Shown in pieces: positions 2,845-24,143 of a stretch of DNA of 26,395 nucleotides. Within the stretch, counting starts at the first letter, position 1. Every line of letters starts with the position of its first letter. A model generated the notes under the pieces. It had not been told where the DNA came from. It worked only from the letters and a program-made list of their open reading frames with translations, and did not search any database. The stretch is taken from IMG/VR virus record IMGVR_UViG_3300025286_002664, positions 1 through 26,395 of that record. One strand, 5' to 3'. A program made the translations under genes and the position numbers. The DNA comes from a virus.

Positions 2845-3717
2845 ATGGTCCAGACTGCAACTACAGGCGCAATCGAACGAGCATCCAAGGAAATGCTTGC
2901 ATCAGTGAGGTACACCATTGAGCATAATGCTCCGGTGTACGGAACTTGTATGCACGACCGCCTTGGTAAAGGCGAGGATACAGGTGTGTTCTTCAAGGTC
3001 GGCCAGATGGATATGGCAGATCTGGATGATGGCGTCGATATGGTGGATGAAGAAGATTTTGGTCTGACTGCCATCTCGGTGACCACTGCTGAAGTGGGTG
3101 CCAAAATCATCCTGACTGACAAGATGATGAGGCAGCAGACCAAGCTGAACTTCGCCACTGTTGGCCGACAAATGGGTGATGGGTACAAGCGCAAGAGGGA
3201 AACTGATGGCATCGCCTTGTTCGCATCCTTGAACGGGGGTACTACCTTTGGTGCTGCCGCTGCTGCCTTCAGTGCTGCGAATGCCACCTCTGTGGTCAGC
3301 ATCGCCAAGACGGACAAGATGGGTGATGACCTCGTCATCATTCAGCATCCCAACGCTGTGATGCGGCTGGCTCGTGACCTAACCACCATTGGTTCGGGTA
3401 CTCTACGTCCCATGCCCGACGGCTACTCGGCACGGCTGATGACCAAGGCATGGAAGGGCTACATGATATGGGATGCCCCTGTGTTTGAGACTGGAAATAT
3501 CGTCCGCGACTCAGCCGACGATGCCATCGGTGTCATCAAAGGCAAGGATGCCATCGGGTACCTGGAGTCCAAGACCTTCGGTTCTGAGAAAGAGCGTGAC
3601 GCTTCTCTCCGAGCTTGGGAAGTCAACTACGTAGCTGATTATGCCGTGTTTGAGAATGATGACACCCTGGGCGCACCCCTGACCTTCGATGCAGCCGACC
3701 CCAGCACCAGTGCATAA
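2845..3717 (+). CDS. Major capsid protein
   Basis: This 290-residue protein directly follows the scaffold gene and has the strongest ribosome binding site of the block (AGGAGG before the ATG). Its composition is that of an HK97-fold coat: a helical N-terminal segment (IERASKEMLASVRYTIEHNA), an extended charged region, LIVIQHPN-like core strands (DDLVIIQHPNAVMRLARD), then a C-terminal part with YLESKTFGSEKERDASLRAWEVNYVADYAVFE, which resembles the closing segment of many phage coats. Assignment rests on gene order, size and these segments, not on a database match. It should be the most abundant virion protein. Confidence 0.8.
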   Translation: MVQTATTGAIERASKEMLASVRYTIEHNAPVYGTCMHDRLGKGEDTGVFFKVGQMDMADLDDGVDMVDEEDFGLTAISVTTAEVGAKIILTDKMMRQQTKLNFATVGRQMGDGYKRKRETDGIALFASLNGGTTFGAAAAAFSAANATSVVSIAKTDKMGDDLVIIQHPNAVMRLARDLTTIGSGTLRPMPDGYSARLMTKAWKGYMIWDAPVFETGNIVRDSADDAIGVIKGKDAIGYLESKTFGSEKERDASLRAWEVNYVADYAVFENDDTLGAPLTFDAADPSTSA

Positions 3718-4223: not shown

Positions 4224-4970
4224 ATGTCATTCCCAGGATTCACTAATCTAGGAGCCGGTACCGAGAAAAAGACAGGTACCACCCAACGTTCCCCGCTTGG
4301 CAAAGAAGGATACATGTTCCCTGGCCGGTGGTTTGTATATGCTCAGGCTGGAGAAGCTGCTACCGTTGCCCTTCTTCAGACTACCCGAACCAACGTGGCC
4401 AACAACGACCTGGACTTGGCTCTTTCTGCGGCTGCTGCCGCTGGGGATACCACGGTCAGCCTGACCCTGGGTTCAACAGCCATTGTGGCTAATGAGTACC
4501 GGGACGGGTTCTTCTTCATCAATGATGCTGGAACCGAGCAGGGCCACCAGTACCTTATCAAGAGCCACCCTGCGGCTGCATCTGGTGCCAATGTGGTATT
4601 GACTTTTGCAGAGCCTGACGGATTGTCAGTGGCTCTCACCACTTCTGAGGAATGCGGAATCATCACCAGCGTAGGATTCGACTTTGTGGTGAACCCGACA
4701 ACCTTCACAGACGCCCCTCTGGGTGCTACCTGCGTCGATGTAGCCGACAATGCCTACGCATGGCTCCAGACTCGTGGACCTGGTATAGGTACTGCTGATG
4801 CGACAGCCCCTGCTGGTGGTCTGCCCATCGCAGCATCCAATGGTACTGCGGGAGCCTTCGAGGTGGACCTGGAAGATGGTACCGTTGAACTGCCTCACAT
4901 AGGGACCCAACGTGACACGGCCTCGGTTGATACCGAGTGTGCCCCAGTCATCTGGAAAATATCACCGTAA
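4224..4970 (+). CDS. Beta-rich virion protein (decoration or head-fibre type)
   Basis: The gene encodes 248 residues with a clear AAAGGAG ribosome binding site after an 85-base gap. The sequence is Ala, Thr, Val and Gly rich with alternating hydrophobic residues (DTTVSLTLGSTAIVANEYRDG, GANVVLTFAEPDG), typical of beta-sandwich virion surface proteins. Near the N-terminus it has PLGKEGYMFPGRWFVYAQAG. No catalytic motif is visible. By location it could be a capsid decoration protein or a head-tail joining protein. Its TAA shares a base with the ATG of the next gene. Confidence 0.65.
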   Translation: MSFPGFTNLGAGTEKKTGTTQRSPLGKEGYMFPGRWFVYAQAGEAATVALLQTTRTNVANNDLDLALSAAAAAGDTTVSLTLGSTAIVANEYRDGFFFINDAGTEQGHQYLIKSHPAAASGANVVLTFAEPDGLSVALTTSEECGIITSVGFDFVVNPTTFTDAPLGATCVDVADNAYAWLQTRGPGIGTADATAPAGGLPIAASNGTAGAFEVDLEDGTVELPHIGTQRDTASVDTECAPVIWKISP

Positions 4971-7607: not shown

Positions 7608-7620
7608 TGGAGGCACTTGA

Positions 7621-8901
7621 TTGCCAGTCGTGGGAAAAAGCCGTAAGCAGCTTGAAACTGCTGTTGGGTACAATGTAGGTGCCGTCGTTGAGGGCACCAC
7701 GACCACTGCTGGCGGCGATACCTCTTCAGTCATTGACAGATCTCTTCGTGGCTCCCTCGGGTCTGATGGACACAACGGCAAATGGCTAGTCTTTACCTCG
7801 GGTAGCAGTAGCGGAGAGATTGTACGAGTCACCAACACCGCCCTCGATACCCCTGTCATTGGGGATGTAGACCTTACCGTTGCCCCTGTTGCCTCTGCCA
7901 CCGTAGCCTCTGGCGTCACCTACGAACTATGGGATGCTGACATCCCCCCTGCCCGTATCCGCAACTTCCTGAATACTGCTGTGATGTCTGTCGTCAAGCA
8001 ATACTATGATCCCGTAGAGAGTGTTGCCCTGCACGGGGACCAGAGCGACTACCGTTTTGATATACCCTCTGGTATAGAGATACTCAACAAGATAGAGTAT
8101 CGTTCTTCCATTGTTACCACAAATATTCACACGTGTGAGGTCGTATTCGATGAGACTACCGATGTCGACTTCACCCAAGTCGTTGATACTGAGGATAAGA
8201 AGCAGGGCAATAGCAGCCTGAAAGTGACCGTGGCGGCTACGGGTGCTGCTGGTGACAAAATAACCGACTCCTTTGCTGCTCTGAACCTCTCCAAGTATGA
8301 CATTGTGGAGTTCTGGGCCAAGTGCTCCATCGCTACCACATCCGGTCAGCTCAATCTCCTCTTGGATGATACAGCAGCCTGTGCATCGCCTCTGGAGACC
8401 CTTGTAGTGCCTGCCCTGGTTGCTGATACCTGGACCTATGTTAGGGTCACCATGGCCAATCCTGAGAGCGATACAGCCCTCATCTCCGTGGGGCTGGAGT
8501 ACACCTCAGACATCGGGGCTTGCACCATTTGGATAGACCACATCAGGGCCGTGGAGAACAGCACCGCCCAGTGGACTCGATTACCCACACACCACTGGAA
8601 GATAGATAAGGAAGCCCGAGACCTCATCCTCACCCAGGAGGGTCGGGCCAGAGTGGGCTACAGCCTGATAAAGCTGGTGGGCGGAGATATTCCAACCCTC
8701 CTTACCGCGGATACTACAACCAACGAGGTACCTGACGAATACATCATCTTCAAGACTACAGCCTTGGCTCTTATGGCAATCGGTGGGGGACAAGGCACTG
8801 ACCCAGATGCTAATAGACTCCGTGCCCGGGACTGGGAAACGCTGGCACAGGATGCCCGAAGGTCCTTTCCTTTGATAATCAATGGACGGTTAGTTTCCTA
8901 G
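7621..8901 (+). CDS. Head-tail adaptor-like protein with an inserted carbohydrate-binding-like domain
   Basis: The start is a TTG with GGAGG 7 bases upstream; 426 residues follow. Residues 1-100 form a small beta domain. Residues about 105-163 (PPARIRNFLNTAV, SDYRFDIPSGIEILNKIEYRSS) and 316-380 (QWTRLPTHHWKIDK, LILTQEGRARVGYSLIKLVGG) read as two halves of one adaptor-like fold. Between them, about 165-315, lies a jelly-roll-like stretch (GNSSLKVTV, LNLSKYDIVEFWAKC, WTYVRVTM, TIWIDHIRA) resembling carbohydrate-binding modules. The last 50 residues are helical. The insertion reading is inference from sequence pattern; a purely structural beta-sandwich is the alternative. Confidence 0.6.
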   Translation: MPVVGKSRKQLETAVGYNVGAVVEGTTTTAGGDTSSVIDRSLRGSLGSDGHNGKWLVFTSGSSSGEIVRVTNTALDTPVIGDVDLTVAPVASATVASGVTYELWDADIPPARIRNFLNTAVMSVVKQYYDPVESVALHGDQSDYRFDIPSGIEILNKIEYRSSIVTTNIHTCEVVFDETTDVDFTQVVDTEDKKQGNSSLKVTVAATGAAGDKITDSFAALNLSKYDIVEFWAKCSIATTSGQLNLLLDDTAACASPLETLVVPALVADTWTYVRVTMANPESDTALISVGLEYTSDIGACTIWIDHIRAVENSTAQWTRLPTHHWKIDKEARDLILTQEGRARVGYSLIKLVGGDIPTLLTADTTTNEVPDEYIIFKTTALALMAIGGGQGTDPDANRLRARDWETLAQDARRSFPLIINGRLVS

Positions 8902-9204
8902 ATGCGTTTGGATTCGGACATGACTGATGTGCCCACCGCAGGCACTGCTGTCCAGATACTCAATACCAGTGATCGTGTGCTGTGGATAAAGTTCACTGCC
9001 CCTACTGCCAACACTGGATTGACCTATGTAGGACTAAGTGATGTCTCTGCGACCAATGGGTATGTGCTTGGGGCGGCGGGGGGCGTGGATGCTACGATAG
9101 AACTAGACTTCGCCAAGTATGATGGTTCAATCCCAGCCAGTCAGTTATACATTGATGCCGCTACCAATGGTGACGATGTATCATGGATTGCTATTCTGAA
9201 ATGA
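8902..9204 (+). CDS. Small beta-sandwich virion protein
   Basis: The 100-residue protein starts directly after the upstream stop (TAG then ATG). It has repeated strand-like segments (TAVQILNTSDRVLWIKFTA, GLTYVGLSDV, ATIELDF, LYIDAATNGDDVSWIAIL). Such single-domain proteins are common as capsid decoration or tail accessory proteins. The similar strand layout to small proteins elsewhere in this block is general and not proof of kinship. The 3' end overlaps the next gene. Confidence 0.6.
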   Translation: MRLDSDMTDVPTAGTAVQILNTSDRVLWIKFTAPTANTGLTYVGLSDVSATNGYVLGAAGGVDATIELDFAKYDGSIPASQLYIDAATNGDDVSWIAILK

Positions 9205-11183
9205 CGTTAGCTAGAGTAACAACAGAGAATACCATCAGCCTGGGCGGGACGATTTATCCACTAACCTCCCCAGTACAACCACGGCTGGTCAATCGCTATG
9301 CTCAGAAGATATCCATTGGGGACACCACGGGGGATAGCCAAGCCAATAGATCCAGGCTACAACTGACTGACAACCGTGGTGGCATAGGCATCGATGTGTT
9401 CACTGATGTGGATGTGGCCAATGGCGTGAACCTGAACCGTAGTTTCTACTCATCGTGCTACCTGCGCCATGAAGGGCACCTGACCCTGCCCCGTCTGGCT
9501 ACGGTGACAGCCGCATCGGGTGTCACTGGCATCTTTGAAATCGGTGCCATCAACGAGTTGTCCGATGAGATATACGCAGCCTTCGGCTCCTCAGTACGCA
9601 AATTTAGTTTTACCAGTGATTCTTGGGGTGCTGCACTCCATGCCCTGCCCGCCGTGGCAACGGACTCCATATGCCTGCGCCTGAACGGGACGATCTATCT
9701 CATCTTTGCTCACACTGGGGGCACCACAGATACCACCGATGGTAGTTCCTTCAATGACCGTACCGATGATGTACTATATATGACCTCCTGGGATGACCGG
9801 CTCTGGGGTATCGATAACACCGGCCAATTGAGATATGCCCTGACCATCGGGACATGGACCAACGATGCCATCTTACCCCTGCCCGACTCCTACGTGACTG
9901 ACCTTTTCGTGGACAGGGACGCTGGTGGGGAACCCATAATTTATGCTGCGACTAAAATTGGCCTCTTCGCCCATGATGCTGCTAACCAGCGATTCGTGCA
10001 GACCGAGTTCGAGGTGCCCTTCCATGACGATGCTGGCAAGGGCGTGAAGCGATGGCGGGGTGCCATGTACTACCCTGCCGGCCTGTCTGAGTACGAGTTC
10101 GTTGCTGGTGCCCCTGGTACACAGAGGGTCATGGGACCTGACAGGGACGACGGCCTACCCAGTGACCGCAGAGGCACCATCATAGGCAACGTGACCACCC
10201 ACAACGAGTTAGTAGCCCTAGTGGACTCCACATCTGCTGCTGCGAGCGACTTCGCCGTCAATCCGTCGTACTCTCTGAATGGGGCGAAGGTCATTGACCC
10301 TGATGTTGGTGTGTCCTTGCTCATGGGCTGGGATAGCCGTGGATGGCAGACCATGTGGGAGTCCGCTGCCAACACCGAGGCCATCACCACAGCCCACGTA
10401 TCCAACGCCTACGGTGGTAACCGTCTCTGGTGGGGACACAACCGCCGTGTGACCTATATGGACCTGCCTGTGGACATCGTGAATCCCAGCGAGACCGACG
10501 ACTTCCTGTATGCCCTATCATCTACCCATCGGTATCCATGGCTGTTGATGGGACAGGAAGCCAATGGACTGGCCCTGCGTCTGCGGATACAGGCCAAGGA
10601 CATGTCAGCTACGGAGACCATCACGCCGTACTACCGTACCGATTTTTCCACGACCACTCGGCACAAACTGCCAGCGGTAACATCCAACGGGATTACGACT
10701 TACAATTTCCCCGCTGACCCGATCCTTCTGTTCCCTGGTGCTTCAGGCGATGTTATTACAGGGGGCGGGTTAAATACAGCGTCTGTAATTGACACCACAT
10801 CTTCCGAAATATCCGAACCTGTGGGCAAAGAGTTCCAATCGATTCGGATTGAATTGGATTTTGCACGAGGCACTAACTCTAGGCTGTCCCCTGATTCGGT
10901 GAGCGTCACCTTGGAGTGGCGTAAGAAACTACCTCCGCAGTATTCCTGGGGGATAGAAATAGATATGAGTAATGCCAGTAATGGTAAGGGCGGCCTCAGT
11001 GTGAAGCAACGTAGAGCAGCCATTGTTGCTGCCGTCGCTCAACCTACTCTGCTGCCTTTCACCTTCAGAGATGATAACGGCAACACGAGGAATTATTATG
11101 TAGATGTCCTAGAGTGGAGCGGTGATGAGTTCACAGGCAATGATGAAGGCGGGAACATTCGGATTCTCGTAGGAGAAAGTTAA
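9201..11183 (+). CDS. Large beta-propeller-like tail protein
   Basis: The preferred start is the ATG at 9201, which overlaps the upstream TGA (ATGA); an in-frame ATG at 9183 gives six more residues. Neither has a strong ribosome binding site. Of 660 residues, about 100-430 contain repeated blade-like motifs (LYMTSWDDRLWGIDNTGQLRY, PIIYAATKIGLFAHD, GNRLWWGHNRRVTYMDLP) typical of propeller folds in phage tail hub or nozzle proteins. The C-terminal third is beta-rich (QSIRIELDFARG, SVSVTLEWRK) and ends in a barrel-like segment. It is probably a tail structural protein at the baseplate or tube tip. Confidence 0.65.
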   Translation: MTLARVTTENTISLGGTIYPLTSPVQPRLVNRYAQKISIGDTTGDSQANRSRLQLTDNRGGIGIDVFTDVDVANGVNLNRSFYSSCYLRHEGHLTLPRLATVTAASGVTGIFEIGAINELSDEIYAAFGSSVRKFSFTSDSWGAALHALPAVATDSICLRLNGTIYLIFAHTGGTTDTTDGSSFNDRTDDVLYMTSWDDRLWGIDNTGQLRYALTIGTWTNDAILPLPDSYVTDLFVDRDAGGEPIIYAATKIGLFAHDAANQRFVQTEFEVPFHDDAGKGVKRWRGAMYYPAGLSEYEFVAGAPGTQRVMGPDRDDGLPSDRRGTIIGNVTTHNELVALVDSTSAAASDFAVNPSYSLNGAKVIDPDVGVSLLMGWDSRGWQTMWESAANTEAITTAHVSNAYGGNRLWWGHNRRVTYMDLPVDIVNPSETDDFLYALSSTHRYPWLLMGQEANGLALRLRIQAKDMSATETITPYYRTDFSTTTRHKLPAVTSNGITTYNFPADPILLFPGASGDVITGGGLNTASVIDTTSSEISEPVGKEFQSIRIELDFARGTNSRLSPDSVSVTLEWRKKLPPQYSWGIEIDMSNASNGKGGLSVKQRRAAIVAAVAQPTLLPFTFRDDNGNTRNYYVDVLEWSGDEFTGNDEGGNIRILVGES

Positions 11184-12680
11184 ATGGCAATTGAATTTGC
11201 AGAGTTTCTATATGATGGCGAAGGAACAGCCATTGAAGGTGCCACGGTTGAGTTATTTGATAGGAACACCACTACCCCGGTACGGGCTAGCACTACCACC
11301 AACGCAGCGGGTTATTGGACCATCACCCACGCCACTGAGGGGCGGTTCGATGTTCGGGTTACCTCTGGTTCTTCGGTGCGGTTCACCAAGTACGATGCAG
11401 CGGTACAGATGGAAGAGTTGGAAGCCAAGGAAATCCATCTCAGGAACCCTGCGAACACGTTTAGCATTGACTTGGTGCCTGGTGCGGTAACAGCGAACCG
11501 AATATTAAACGTGCCTGTCATCACGGGCACAGATACTCTGGCCACTCTGGGCCTTGCAGCCACCTTCTCGGCTATTATGACTCACAGTGCTGACATTATC
11601 ATCCAGGACGACAGTGACCTGGCCATTGGCACCAGTTCGGATAACTTACTCCGTTGGTCCACAGGCGATGCTTCGGCCCATACGCTAGTCTTAGGCCTCA
11701 ACGACACCAACCAGACCCTGCACATCACAGATGTAGGGGCTATAGCGACGGACTGGGGTGCCTCTAACCTGACTCACCCAGAGGTGCTGATTCATTCCAA
11801 CACAGATACCAGCACAGACTATCTCAGGTTGGGGGGACACGATGGCACGACAGCGTACATAGACAACGTCGGTGGTACCACCCTGGCATTCCAGATTGCT
11901 GGCACCAGTGAGTTGACGTTGACTGCGACACTGCTTTCGCCAGTCTCAGATGCGACCACCGACTTGGGGACCACATCTGTAGGATTTAATGACCTCCACT
12001 TGGGGTCAGGCGGCATCATTAACCTAGATGGTGGCGATGTCCTCCTTACCCATTCCGCCAACTTCCTGACCATGACAGGTGGCTCCTTCAGGGTAGATGG
12101 TAATGTTGGTACTAACCGTGCTCCGACTACCCAAATGGATGCTTATGTTGCAGATTCTGGGACTACTACTGTAGTGCGGACCATAAAGGCAGTCCATGCA
12201 TCTACTGGGACACCAGATGCTGGTCTGGGCGTTGGTATCCAGTTTGAGATTGATAAAGGTTCTGGAGGTAGTGTCACCACTGCTGGTCGGATGGATGTTC
12301 TGTGGAACAAAGCTCCCAACGCTGGTTCTAATGAAGATGCCGACTGGGTGCTTTCCTTACGGAGCAGCGGCACCACAGGCGAGAAAGTACGTATCCTAGA
12401 TACAGGTAGCATGTCCTTTGCACAAGCCAGCACTATCTTATGTACCTCTGCTACCATGACCTTCGGTTCTTCGGGGCAACAGATTGATGTAGCCAACGGC
12501 AGCGTGAAGCTAACCATGGGCACTGCATCCACCTTCGGGACAACCCAGCCAACCAATGCTATAGTGTGCAGGGCAGGAACAGCCCCTGCTGGTGCTATTA
12601 CCACAGCCAGCGGCATCTTTGCCAGCACCTCCGTGCTCAGGAAGATTATCGCTGATGGTACAGTATCCAACGTAGGATAG
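11184..12680 (+). CDS. Tail fibre protein
   Basis: The 498-residue protein starts directly after the upstream stop, with AGGAG at good distance. Residues 1-80 look like a CnaB/Ig-type domain (LYDGEGTAIEGATVELFD, GYWTITHATEGRFDVRV) that probably anchors the fibre. The middle is a series of short beta repeats of fibre shafts (DLAIGTSSDNLLRWST, TDLGTTSVGFNDLHLG, DWVLSLRSSG). The C-terminal part (TILCTSATMTFGSSGQ, GIFASTSVLRKIIADG) may trimerise or bind receptor. No lyase or chaperone domain is visible. Position at the end of the virion block fits a receptor-binding fibre. Confidence 0.75.
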   Translation: MAIEFAEFLYDGEGTAIEGATVELFDRNTTTPVRASTTTNAAGYWTITHATEGRFDVRVTSGSSVRFTKYDAAVQMEELEAKEIHLRNPANTFSIDLVPGAVTANRILNVPVITGTDTLATLGLAATFSAIMTHSADIIIQDDSDLAIGTSSDNLLRWSTGDASAHTLVLGLNDTNQTLHITDVGAIATDWGASNLTHPEVLIHSNTDTSTDYLRLGGHDGTTAYIDNVGGTTLAFQIAGTSELTLTATLLSPVSDATTDLGTTSVGFNDLHLGSGGIINLDGGDVLLTHSANFLTMTGGSFRVDGNVGTNRAPTTQMDAYVADSGTTTVVRTIKAVHASTGTPDAGLGVGIQFEIDKGSGGSVTTAGRMDVLWNKAPNAGSNEDADWVLSLRSSGTTGEKVRILDTGSMSFAQASTILCTSATMTFGSSGQQIDVANGSVKLTMGTASTFGTTQPTNAIVCRAGTAPAGAITTASGIFASTSVLRKIIADGTVSNVG

Positions 12681-15266: not shown

Positions 15267-16568
15267 CTAGCTAATTAGTTCTATGCCAGCTTCTGGAACC
15301 TGGAGCTTAGCAAACGCTCCGGAAACCGCGTCGATCTGGTCGTCATGTGAGCCATTGGGGAAGGACTCGGCTTCGTCAAGGTAATCTGTAATCCAGGTTC
15401 CTGCGATCAACCGGAAGTTACCAGCCTGGGCAGTAGAACTAACCGGATTGGCTCGTTCCTCTTTACTGCCGGTCGGTCGGTCACCGTAACAAATGTATCC
15501 TTGGAGGACTTTGCGGATGTAGTGGTCTATAGTAATGACACCGGAAGAACCTGGTTCTTGTTCAATGTAAATCGGAGTATTAACACCATCAAGGGCAGCG
15601 ACCTGTTTGATAAGATGCTCGATATCAAGAGGGGTTCCTTGGATACGCACCATATGCATGATGTAGTAAATCCCATCTTCATCGATGCCGACAAGCGCAC
15701 CGGCTGTCCAATCAGGATCTTTACCTGGCGCAGGGGCTGTAGCAGCCATGTCCCAATAACGCACTTTGTCTACGAGATTAACAGGCACACGATCCAAAGG
15801 AGCTTTGAACCATTCGCGCTTGAATTTTCCACCTTGCTGTCTGGCTGACCAATCTCCTCGTAGTAACTGCGCTTTTGTGACAGCATCTAGTTGCGACAAG
15901 GATTGCACATATGCTGCACGATCAAGGAACGGGTTATCAGCAAGCCGTGCAGGAATGAAAATACGGCCCTTGGATTTTCCTTCCACCACAAACCGCTGCT
16001 TGACCCAGTCATGGCCTCTTCCACCAGGGTTGGAAGCAGAGCGCATCCTTAATGGGATGTTGCTTCCGGTAGGACGACGAAGTCGAGAGAATAAATAAGT
16101 GTATTGCGATTGAGTGAACTGGGTTAGTTCGTCGAATCCAATAAACTGGAATTCAGTGGACTGATATCGATATTTGTGGTTTTCATTATCCATGTAGGCA
16201 AAGGTCAACGTTGCCCCGCTCGGGAATCTCCACTCTTTCGTCATCTCGTGCCATGTGCAATCCTTGCCATTAAGCCATTCCTTGGATCGTTCCATAATTG
16301 CACCAGGAAGAGCAAGGTCGGCAAAAGTACGCCGGAAGAGAATGGCGTGATAGTCAGGTTCATCTACATACTGTAATGCTGCCATGAGCAAAGCTTCTGA
16401 TTTGCCACCACCGGCAGCACCACCGTAAAGGACTTCTTGTACATCGACCAGCATCAAAAAACGGGCTTCTTTGTGTGTCGGTTCATGAGGAATATAACGA
16501 TTGCGTACAACGGTGAACCCAAGAATACCTTCGCGTAGTTTTATTGGATCAATTGATGCAGTTACCAT
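15267..16568 (-). CDS. terL: Terminase large subunit
   Basis: This 433-residue protein is the packaging ATPase and nuclease. Walker A is GGAAGGGKSE (49-58), Walker B is FIGFDE (142-147) and the coupling motif is SASNPGG (177-183). The nuclease domain has RYWDMA (D273), YIEQEPGSSG (E336) and SHDDQIDA (near 407-414), matching the acidic residues of the RNase H-like fold. The length is typical. It follows TerS by only a few bases. Transcription is opposite to the virion genes and in line with the replication genes. No strong ribosome binding site was seen, so coupling to TerS is likely. Confidence 0.95.
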   Translation of the reverse strand: MVTASIDPIKLREGILGFTVVRNRYIPHEPTHKEARFLMLVDVQEVLYGGAAGGGKSEALLMAALQYVDEPDYHAILFRRTFADLALPGAIMERSKEWLNGKDCTWHEMTKEWRFPSGATLTFAYMDNENHKYRYQSTEFQFIGFDELTQFTQSQYTYLFSRLRRPTGSNIPLRMRSASNPGGRGHDWVKQRFVVEGKSKGRIFIPARLADNPFLDRAAYVQSLSQLDAVTKAQLLRGDWSARQQGGKFKREWFKAPLDRVPVNLVDKVRYWDMAATAPAPGKDPDWTAGALVGIDEDGIYYIMHMVRIQGTPLDIEHLIKQVAALDGVNTPIYIEQEPGSSGVITIDHYIRKVLQGYICYGDRPTGSKEERANPVSSTAQAGNFRLIAGTWITDYLDEAESFPNGSHDDQIDAVSGAFAKLQVPEAGIELIS

Positions 16569-21905: not shown

Positions 21906-24143
21906 ATGGCTCAATATAAAGTGTTATGTGGCTGCGGCCACGAATGCTTACCTCATGGAGGCGCTCAAGGTCTCCAAGGAGGACCTAATGCGGGAGCCCG
22001 ATCCGGAGGAGGTATCGGCATGACTACGGCGGTAGACCTATTCCCTTTCCAGGATGCTATCAGTCAATGGGCAGTCAACAAAGGACGGGCGGCTATATTC
22101 GCTGATACAGGGTTGGGGAAAACTCGGATGCAGCTTACATGGGCAGAGGCGATGGCAGGGCGCACGATCATCCTTGCTCCGTTGGCTGTGGCCTTACAGA
22201 CAGAACGGGAGGCGCAGCTTATTGGCGTTGATGCTGGCTATGCCAGGCATCCCGACCAGGTCTCGGCCAGGGTGACTATTGCAAACTATGAAATGGTGGA
22301 CAGGTTTAACCCCCAAGATTATCAAGCCGTGGTGCTGGACGAGTCTTCCATTTTAAAAAATGTTGACGCCAAGACTCGGGGTAAATTAACGGGGTTATTT
22401 GCCCAGACACCCTATCGCCTCTGTTGCACAGCAACTCCATCACCCAATGATATCGCTGAGTTGACCAACCACGCCGAATTCCTTGGCATCATGCGCCGGA
22501 CAGACGTACTCGCCAAGTTCTTTGTCCATGATGATGATGGGTGGAGGCTCAAGGGCCATGCTCAGGAATCATTCTGGGAGTGGGTATCGACGTGGGCGAT
22601 GGCTTTGCAGCGGCCATCGGATCTAGGATATACCGATGATGGTTATGACCTCCCGTCCCTCAACATTCATCATGTAGAAGTAGAGGGTGAAGCGGCTGCC
22701 TATGCCCAAGCAACGGGGCAGCTATTCGCCACCGAACTGAGGGGGTTACATGGCCGTCTAGCGGCCCGAAAGACGACGGTCGAACAGAGGGCGCAAAAGG
22801 CCATAGACCTTATCTCTGAACATCCCGACGATCAATGGCTAGTGTGGTGTGGATTGAACGAAGAAGGACGGCTACTCAAACGATATTTATCCTCTGCCAC
22901 TCTGATAGAAGGTGCACATTCTTTCGATACTAAAATGGACGCCGCCCGCCAGTTCGCCGATGGAGGGCTAGGTGTCCTCATTAGCAAGCCGTCGATTATG
23001 GGGTTCGGCATGAATTTCCAGAAGGCGCACCGCATGATCTTCCTCGGTATCAATGACAGTTTCGAGACTTACTACCAGGCGATCCGGCGATGCTGGCGAT
23101 TCGGTCAACAAGAGGCCGTTGATGTATATACCATCATGTCAGACCTGGAGCGGCCGGTTTGGGATAATGTCCAACGCAAGGCAAAAGAACATGAGGGGAT
23201 GGTGCAAAAAATGATGGGATTTATGTCGGACTTTGGCAAAGCCGCCCTGCATGGTGCCATCGTCGACCATGAGAGGATGCCAGACGACACGGCCTCCGGA
23301 CAGGGATGGACATTGCACCGGGGCGACTCGACCGCCGTTCTTCCCACTTTGGAGCCCGATAGCGTTGATCTGACAGTATTCAGCCCGCCCTTTCTCAGTT
23401 TGTTCGTTTACAGCGATGATGACCGAGACCTGGGGAATAGTGATTCCGAGAATGTGTTCATGGAGCGGTTCCGGCCCATCGTCGCTGAACTCCTGCGGGT
23501 CACCAAGCCTGGCCGCCTGGCCGTGGTCCATGTGGCCCAGGTGGCGGCGACATTAGCCCATGATGGTTTCATAGGGATCAAGGATTTTCGGGGTGCCGTC
23601 ATCAAGTTGTTTATCGAGGAGCAGTTCCACTATCATGGTGATGTCACCATCGATAAGAATCCCCAAGCCCAAGCCATCCGCACCCACGCCAAAGCCTTGC
23701 TATTCAAGCAGCTCCGCAAGGACGCATCATGGCTACGTCCTGGACTGGCAGACTATATGTTGCTGTTCCGTAAGCCTGGCGAGCCAGCGATACCCATCCA
23801 GCCCGATATCTCCAATGAGGAATGGATCGAATGGGCGCACCCCGTCTGGTATGGCATGAGAGAAACGGACACGCTAAATGTCGCCCTGGCCCGAGCGGAA
23901 CGGGATGAACGCCATATCTGCCCCCTTCAGCTACCTGTTATCGAGCGATGTATCCGACTCTGGAGCAATCCTGGCGATGTTGTGTTGAGCCCCTTCGCCG
24001 GGATCGGTTCCGAAGGCTACGTAGCGTTACAACAAAAAAGACGGTTTGTAGGGGTAGAGCTAAAGGATTCATACTATCGGGTCGCTTGCCGTAACCTGGA
24101 CCATGCTGCGACGACCCGACAGGACCAGATGGAGATGGTATGA
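21906..24143 (+). CDS. SNF2-like helicase fused to a DNA methyltransferase
   Basis: The 745-residue protein joins two enzymes. Residues about 45-440 form a SNF2/DEAD-type translocase: ADTGLGKT (66-73), LDESS (145-149 region), TATPS (175-179), and motif VI QAIRRCWRFGQ (391-401). Residues about 465-745 form a beta-class methyltransferase: SPPF (493-496) and SPFAGIGS (695-702), then FVGVELKDSYY. SPPF leans to N4-cytosine chemistry. Residues 1-38 are Gly-rich and unlike a helicase. An internal ATG at 22020 (residue 39) has strong GGAGGAGG and may be the real start, giving 707 aa. The fusion could couple DNA translocation to methylation for host-restriction evasion. No nuclease motif was seen. Confidence 0.85.
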   Translation: MAQYKVLCGCGHECLPHGGAQGLQGGPNAGARSGGGIGMTTAVDLFPFQDAISQWAVNKGRAAIFADTGLGKTRMQLTWAEAMAGRTIILAPLAVALQTEREAQLIGVDAGYARHPDQVSARVTIANYEMVDRFNPQDYQAVVLDESSILKNVDAKTRGKLTGLFAQTPYRLCCTATPSPNDIAELTNHAEFLGIMRRTDVLAKFFVHDDDGWRLKGHAQESFWEWVSTWAMALQRPSDLGYTDDGYDLPSLNIHHVEVEGEAAAYAQATGQLFATELRGLHGRLAARKTTVEQRAQKAIDLISEHPDDQWLVWCGLNEEGRLLKRYLSSATLIEGAHSFDTKMDAARQFADGGLGVLISKPSIMGFGMNFQKAHRMIFLGINDSFETYYQAIRRCWRFGQQEAVDVYTIMSDLERPVWDNVQRKAKEHEGMVQKMMGFMSDFGKAALHGAIVDHERMPDDTASGQGWTLHRGDSTAVLPTLEPDSVDLTVFSPPFLSLFVYSDDDRDLGNSDSENVFMERFRPIVAELLRVTKPGRLAVVHVAQVAATLAHDGFIGIKDFRGAVIKLFIEEQFHYHGDVTIDKNPQAQAIRTHAKALLFKQLRKDASWLRPGLADYMLLFRKPGEPAIPIQPDISNEEWIEWAHPVWYGMRETDTLNVALARAERDERHICPLQLPVIERCIRLWSNPGDVVLSPFAGIGSEGYVALQQKRRFVGVELKDSYYRVACRNLDHAATTRQDQMEMV

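Follow-up and report, generated by a model that had tools for sequence, protein, structure and literature searches.

Head-tail adaptors are usually regarded as conserved plumbing, and in P22 and T7 the adaptor gene precedes the nozzle gene. The published adaptors are described as lacking sequence homology and as sharing a four-helix bundle (PMC6702177). For the 936 lactococcal phages, carbohydrate-binding modules (CBMs) were reported on the neck, one of which bound its host (PMC6669499), and exchange of domains of the neck passage structure has been reported (PMC10684548). The turret of HFTV1 carries a galactose-binding-like domain, for which the authors propose reversible binding of host glycans (PMC12494034). 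In roseophage R4C, the adaptor is described as bearing an Ig-like domain, and the megatron protein of the baseplate a CBM11-like one (PMC10276861).

The window analyzed here, i.e. the whole stretch of 26,395 nucleotides of a virus (IMG/VR record IMGVR_UViG_3300025286_002664, positions 1 to 26,395), encodes a 426-aa protein that is probably a head-tail adaptor with a CBM-like domain inserted into it. The gene and the parts of its product are as follows.

7609..7613, + strand, probable ribosome-binding site, ggagg, 7 nt 5' of the TTG start (direct reading)
7621..8901, + strand, probable head-tail adaptor with inserted CBM-like domain, 426 aa (ORF, AlphaFold2 model, gene context)
7621..7677, + strand, residues 1-19, N-terminal helix (8-19), consensus of the relatives of GRTRKQLRQSIGYNLG type (alignment, AlphaFold2)
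7684..7932, + strand, residues 22-104, small beta domain, partly separate evolutionary module (AlphaFold2, identity correlations)
7933..8109, + strand, residues 105-163, N half of the probable adaptor core, helix 110-128 and strands (AlphaFold2, identity correlations)
8110..8565, + strand, residues 164-315, CBM-like jelly-roll insert, exchanged cassette (model, structure comparison, co-variation)
8566..8898, + strand, residues 316-426, C half of the probable adaptor core, strands and helices 372-386 and 395-414 (model, identity correlations)

Relatives of the 426-aa protein were found in viral contigs (28, with 39-78% identity in the best segment); none was found in the phage collection at E 0.1, none was confirmed by a pattern search of bacterial and archaeal genomes, and a tblastn search started from a single divergent scaffold yielded matches to Vibrio phages at chance level only (E of at least 6). 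A Pfam match to Bac_thur_toxin (E 0.058, below the family's cut-off) was set aside as a chance match. No tRNA genes and no Rfam families at gathering score were found in the window. Within the N-terminal beta domain (residues 22-104), the identities of parts 6-60 and 61-104 correlate at 0.86 with each other, and at r 0.64 and 0.55, respectively, with those of core residues 105-163; this domain, partly uncoupled from the core, may itself be an earlier insertion that separates helices 1 and 2.

The structure of the whole protein was predicted with AlphaFold2 from 19 aligned sequences (pLDDT 77.5, pTM 0.55), and with this pTM the relative placement of the domains is uncertain. Helices are predicted at residues 8-19, 110-128, 372-386 and 395-414, plus two short ones; residues 22-104 or so are beta structure, and a further all-beta part is enclosed by the long strands 154-170 and 308-320. 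The pLDDT of residues 161-320 is 85-93 in 15 of 16 ten-residue blocks and 75 in block 281-290. Helices 110-128 and 372-386 flank a beta hairpin, and it is this hairpin that holds the predicted jelly roll. A sequence-only reading of this DNA had proposed an independent jelly roll inside another fold; the AlphaFold2 model and the structure comparison place a CBM fold at residues 164-315 within that hairpin, and the model contains a separate jelly roll rather than one continuous fold, which that reading had named as evidence against itself.

Fold matches of the insert, obtained with Foldseek and VIA-align, comprise CBM30, CBM8, CBM11, CBM29, CBM4 and CBM22. The best VIA-align match of residues 164-315 is CBM30 (2c24; Z 14.0, 2.7 A, 142 residues, 15% identity), and Foldseek against solved structures matched the insert to CBMs with E-values down to 1.6e-6. 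In a separate search, the top viral match was A0A1B1ITR8, an unnamed protein (E 9.6e-21, 19% identity). Among the 50 VIA-align matches listed, 47 are CBMs or glycan-degrading enzymes, and the remainder consists of the HFTV1 turret and two complex I assembly structures, 7zkq and 7zkp; the presence of the latter two means that the CBM fold does not of itself prove sugar binding. At the level of sequence, the family CBM_11 (PF03425) was matched by four of 14 insert sequences (best E 1.7e-4), and the other Pfam matches among the 14 were MgpC in three (best E 0.0015) and Mann_GBD_bact in one (E 0.0088). The insert of the window itself matched no Pfam family at E up to 1, and it is therefore not filed as CBM11. 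As predicted, residues 164-315 are a CBM-type jelly roll.

The occurrence of the insert in relatives was surveyed by three scans, with the insert alone, the C flank alone and the N flank alone, which took the best 80 of 198, 258 and 231 confirmed stretches, respectively (80 loci each). Any match was found in 269 ORFs at 269 loci, with the architecture N-insert-C in 257, N-insert in nine and insert-C in two, the remaining one being a protein of Methanosarcina virus MetMV; all 11 partial ORFs lie at contig or locus ends. Among these best 80 per scan, the architecture N-C without insert occurred in 0 of 269 ORFs, and the insert was present in all 257 ORFs having both flanks. The full proteins comprise 124 distinct sequences, the window's included, with several loci from the same contig, and the insert profile matches once in each of the 20 longer records chosen (window included). 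The sequence-only reading had considered itself contradicted if homologues always contained the region and the region bore no similarity to CBMs; the former is what the best 80 per scan gave (257 of 257), and the latter is at odds with the fold matches and with the CBM_11 matches in four of 14 sequences. The MetMV protein (784 aa, L030:7476-9827; E 7.7e-13 with the insert profile) has the domain in another context, and is large, repetitive and structural-looking.

Co-variation was analyzed by pairwise identities among 122 distinct sequences for the pieces 105-163, insert and 316-370. The two flank pieces correlate at r 0.80 despite the 150 residues between them, compared with r 0.37 for 105-163 and the insert (difference of the two plain correlations 0.27-0.55; 500 resamplings, 99% range), and the partial correlations are 0.77 for the flanks given the insert and 0.09 for 105-163 and the insert given 316-370. 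When the loci are separated by the scan that fetched them, the partial correlations of flank with flank and flank with insert are 0.80 and 0.18 for the C flank (63 distinct), 0.78 and 0.05 for the N flank (57 distinct), and 0.75 and 0.01 for the insert (60), the raw insert/flank correlations being higher in this last set (0.65 and 0.74). The insert columns agree internally (odd versus even, 0.86). The suspicion of the sequence-only reading that the halves around 105-163 and 316-380 are one unit is borne out by the correlation of 105-163 with 316-370 across the insert.

Of 131 pairs whose flanks are at least 85% identical, 27 have insert identity below 70%, and of 1729 pairs whose flanks are at most 50% identical, 197 have insert identity of 80% or more; the same two counts for one flank piece against the other are 3 of 103 and 0 of 1565 (pairs of sequences are not independent, and pair counts are not event counts). 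Trees of the pieces, with 115-118 splits each, share 52 splits between the two flank pieces, 18-26 between flank and insert, and 30 between the insert halves. Tree distances, which separate flanks from insert better than do shared splits, correlate at 0.65 between the two flank pieces and at 0.77 between the insert halves, and at 0.26-0.38 for flank versus insert.

Identity profiles at the DNA level were computed for five locus pairs. For L220/L249, L146/L142 and L179/L175, the gene flanks are mostly 80-100% identical on both sides of a dip to 42-77%, which extends from about residue 160-180 to about 300-330; L169/L140 has the same pattern (75-90% down to 48-70%), and in L062/L059 it is the insert that shows the higher conservation. 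Identity dips upstream of the gene as well in all four of the close pairs, and L146/L142 has a dip in its nozzle gene, hence the insert is not the sole exchanged stretch. The insert behaves as a cassette exchanged among related viruses, and it keeps invariant residues. That it is far more conserved than the scaffold (0.71 versus 0.57-0.58, all 122 sequences) was discarded as partly a search bias; after the choice of loci by flanks only, a smaller excess persists (0.69-0.70 versus 0.58-0.62).

An extra domain of about 75 residues was found directly before the insert core in 12 of the 124 proteins, and for 10 of these 12 carriers the nearest protein by flank is without it. The state of this module changes 11 times on the flank tree and three times on the insert tree; judged from these sequences, it travels with the insert cassette. 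In other relatives, this module lies within the nozzle (11 distinct stretches, some partial), nine near residues 180-195 of the window's nozzle and two near 490-545, the latter two being one sequence from two contigs, one of them cut. These occurrences suggest that the domain moves between two neck proteins, adaptor and nozzle. Examples of the module, TTLNGAI...SSNTLTVSRG-like, are in nozzles L060:4771-6924 and L241:4263-6443, and in adaptors L022, L142 and L151.

The neighboring genes to which the 426-aa protein was compared are the following.

2845..3717, + strand, major capsid protein (Phage_capsid_4, E 1.9e-7)
8902..9204, + strand, small protein, 100 aa, between adaptor and nozzle (ORF; r 0.67 with the adaptor core, 73 loci)
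9183..11183, + strand, probable tail nozzle, 666 aa, beta-propeller, P22 gp10-like fold (structure model, fold search)
11184..12680, + strand, probable tail fibre, N-terminal CarboxypepD_reg-like domain just under the Pfam cut-off (Pfam, position in G001)

The nozzle model (pLDDT 69.7, pTM 0.63) resembles podoviral tail hubs along most of the chain, with P22 (8u10_1) matched at E 3.4e-9 and TMt 0.58; ranks 1-4, 10 and 12 of the fold search are Pa223, P22, VP1 and GP4, with 590-655 columns aligned at rmsd 7.7-9.9 and TMt 0.50-0.58. Unrelated propellers (e.g. human LGI1) are interleaved in this list over about 380-410 columns only, and the VIA-align list, ordered by Z, contains generic propellers only. 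The matched P22 chains have the length of gp10. A strict-pattern scan for nozzle relatives gave no matches; the nozzle homologues were taken from adaptor-bearing loci.

The gene order in G001 is terminase, a 623-aa gene (probably the portal, by position), genes of 743, 121 and 2017 aa, scaffold (named by position), major capsid protein (by likeness to that of the window), genes of 134, 248 and 120 aa, and adaptor, followed by nozzle, genes of 97 and 132 aa, and a fibre with a Peptidase_S74 C terminus. The terminase of G001 (L289:15966-17315) lies before the probable portal and is encoded in the same direction as the head genes; that of the window (15267-16568, - strand) is found downstream of the fibre and runs in the opposite direction to its head genes. 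The 248-aa protein of the window (4224-4970), whose relatives average 45% identity (116 loci), has low correlations with the core of the adaptor (r 0.19) and with the insert (0.18); it too changes on its own within the cluster of head genes, and may be a decoration protein. The window also encodes a 745-aa fusion of SNF2-type helicase and N6/N4 DNA methylase (21906-24143).

For the scaffold, i.e. the joined flanks, none of 11 members matched any Pfam family, only weak single matches were found in PHROG (best E 0.066), and nothing convincing was found among PDB sequences (best E 0.073). When scaffold alignments were compared by hhalign with 15 SU10-type adaptors, using shallow alignments (Neff 2.1-2.7), the P-values were 0.09-0.21 (local) and 0.75-0.94 (global), and similarity to the SU10-type profile was not detected; the P-values of this profile were 0.27 with the full protein and 0.30 with the insert as control. 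Known adaptors are themselves described as unlike one another in sequence, so the missing sequence match is weak counter-evidence. Adaptors were also absent, by description, among the 50 matches listed per fold search, in which residues outside 163-348 were barely covered; the CBM part filled these lists, so that the scaffold's own fold was hardly compared. Four main helices are predicted. A relative of the nozzle starts at most 315 nt after the end of the adaptor gene in 212 of 215 loci (those with at least 900 bp downstream), and the adaptor core correlates with the nozzle at r 0.81 (87 loci; partial correlation given the insert, 0.77). The helix order and the gene context indicate that the host protein is probably a podoviral head-tail adaptor, and the head-tail joint fits better as the place of the insert than does the capsid surface, which the sequence-only reading had named as the other option.

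The boundaries of the insert, its CBM fold, the unity of the flanks, the exchange, and the nozzle-like neighbor were computed directly. The explanation that we favor, at somewhat better than even confidence, is a glycan-binding collar at the neck, carried by the adaptor and exchanged by recombination. The protein would serve a podovirus-like phage as its head-tail adaptor subunit; the helix core, from the N and C parts of the chain, would form a ring between portal and nozzle; the CBM-fold domain would project outward from the beta hairpin of the core and bind host-surface glycans (sugars of the wall, the capsule or the surface layer). The resulting collar would make weak, multivalent contacts for a first, reversible attachment separate from that of the tail fibre, and recombination would swap the domain among related viruses, retuning the glycan target and leaving the neck machinery intact. 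Counting against this explanation, the conservation of the insert above that of the scaffold is unusual for a fast-changing receptor binder.

The insert might instead be an enlarged dock for the fibre or tail, i.e. a protein-protein platform in the adaptor without sugar binding, as in T7 gp11, whose adaptor with four-helix bundle is reported to carry a five-stranded jelly-roll fibre dock (PMC6702177). Such a dock should track its partner; correlations of the insert given the core are weak with the nozzle (0.17, 87 loci), the N terminus of the fibre (0.24, 51 loci) and the major capsid protein (0.02, 82 loci), and those of the core given the insert are 0.77, 0.58 and 0.37 in the same loci. That the insert barely tracks these three proteins favors a free, outward binding domain over a docking surface, and the fold match spans whole CBM domains. 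The residual correlation of 0.24 with the fibre leaves room for a docking role, and the insert's own conservation, with invariant residues and slightly above that of the scaffold, implies some constraint on it. We consider a dock unlikely. A clamp in contact with the capsid appears less likely still: for R4C, the peripheral Ig-like domain of the adaptor is reported to meet the capsid, with a role in adsorption deemed unlikely by the authors (PMC10276861), and a clamp would be in keeping with the insert's presence in 257 of 257 ORFs having both flanks (best 80 per scan), but once the core is allowed for, the insert is uncorrelated with the capsid protein (0.02, 82 loci), and it is exchanged between lineages. 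Finally, that the protein is no adaptor but a different CBM-bearing neck or decoration protein is improbable even though sequence matches and direct fold matches to adaptors are absent (the scaffold being barely covered in the CBM-filled fold lists), as its gene sits right before a P22 gp10-like nozzle gene and co-varies with it, four helices are predicted, and no other adaptor gene was recognized in G001, which counts little with 10 ORFs scanned and most of them without a family match.

Under the favored explanation of a glycan-binding collar, the broader picture for these uncultured podovirus-like phages, to which we give an even chance, would be an adaptor ring that binds glycans through a cartridge swapped among lineages, and attachment tuned at the neck and not tied to fibre, nozzle or capsid, with a second small domain moving between adaptor and nozzle. 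If true, an exchangeable glycan-binding domain of the adaptor may mean that host range is partly set at the neck, a contribution that prediction of hosts from fibres only would miss. The signal of exchange, i.e. flanks that track each other around an insert that does not, is also a simple computational finder of modules in unnamed virion proteins.

Much of the sequence-only reading stands, i.e. a CBM jelly roll in another fold, flanks that are one unit, and most likely an adaptor; the adhesion device that it called unusual is less so, in view of the CBM-type domains already reported on necks and capsids (936 phages, HFTV1). In the text accessible for the open-licence papers searched, no adaptor with an inserted CBM was described; as far as these searches show, CBMs of neck and capsid are known, and a CBM fold inside an adaptor together with cassette exchange was not found described in this literature.

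In comparison with the adaptors T7 gp11, P22 gp4 and that of SU10, the protein shares the position of its gene before the nozzle gene and, as predicted by the model, four main helices, and with T7 gp11 also a beta element (the fibre dock) inserted in the helix core; it differs by the absence of sequence similarity (by profile comparison for SU10-type adaptors only), and by an additional domain of CBM size and an N-terminal beta domain (22-104). The R4C adaptor likewise has an accessory beta domain at its periphery; this is an N-terminal Ig-like domain, structural according to the authors, and is not described as a CBM in the available text of that report. The likeness to CBM families 30, 11, 8, 4, 22 and 29 is one of fold (Z 11-14 over 121-149 residues in the rows listed) and of a weak CBM_11 sequence match in four of 14 insert sequences; identity is 8-17% among the CBM rows listed, and theirs are domains of polysaccharide-degrading enzymes whereas the insert is in a virion protein. 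The head of the HFTV1 turret (8qpg) has the same domain fold (Z 12.9, 2.8 A, 137 residues, 19% identity), on capsid turrets with a deacetylase-like domain, whereas here the domain is in a probable adaptor and without an enzyme domain. The neck passage structure of the 936 phages is alike in its CBM-type neck domains and in their exchange; as reported, these are C-terminal domains of a separate neck protein, whereas the domain described here is an internal insertion in a probable adaptor.
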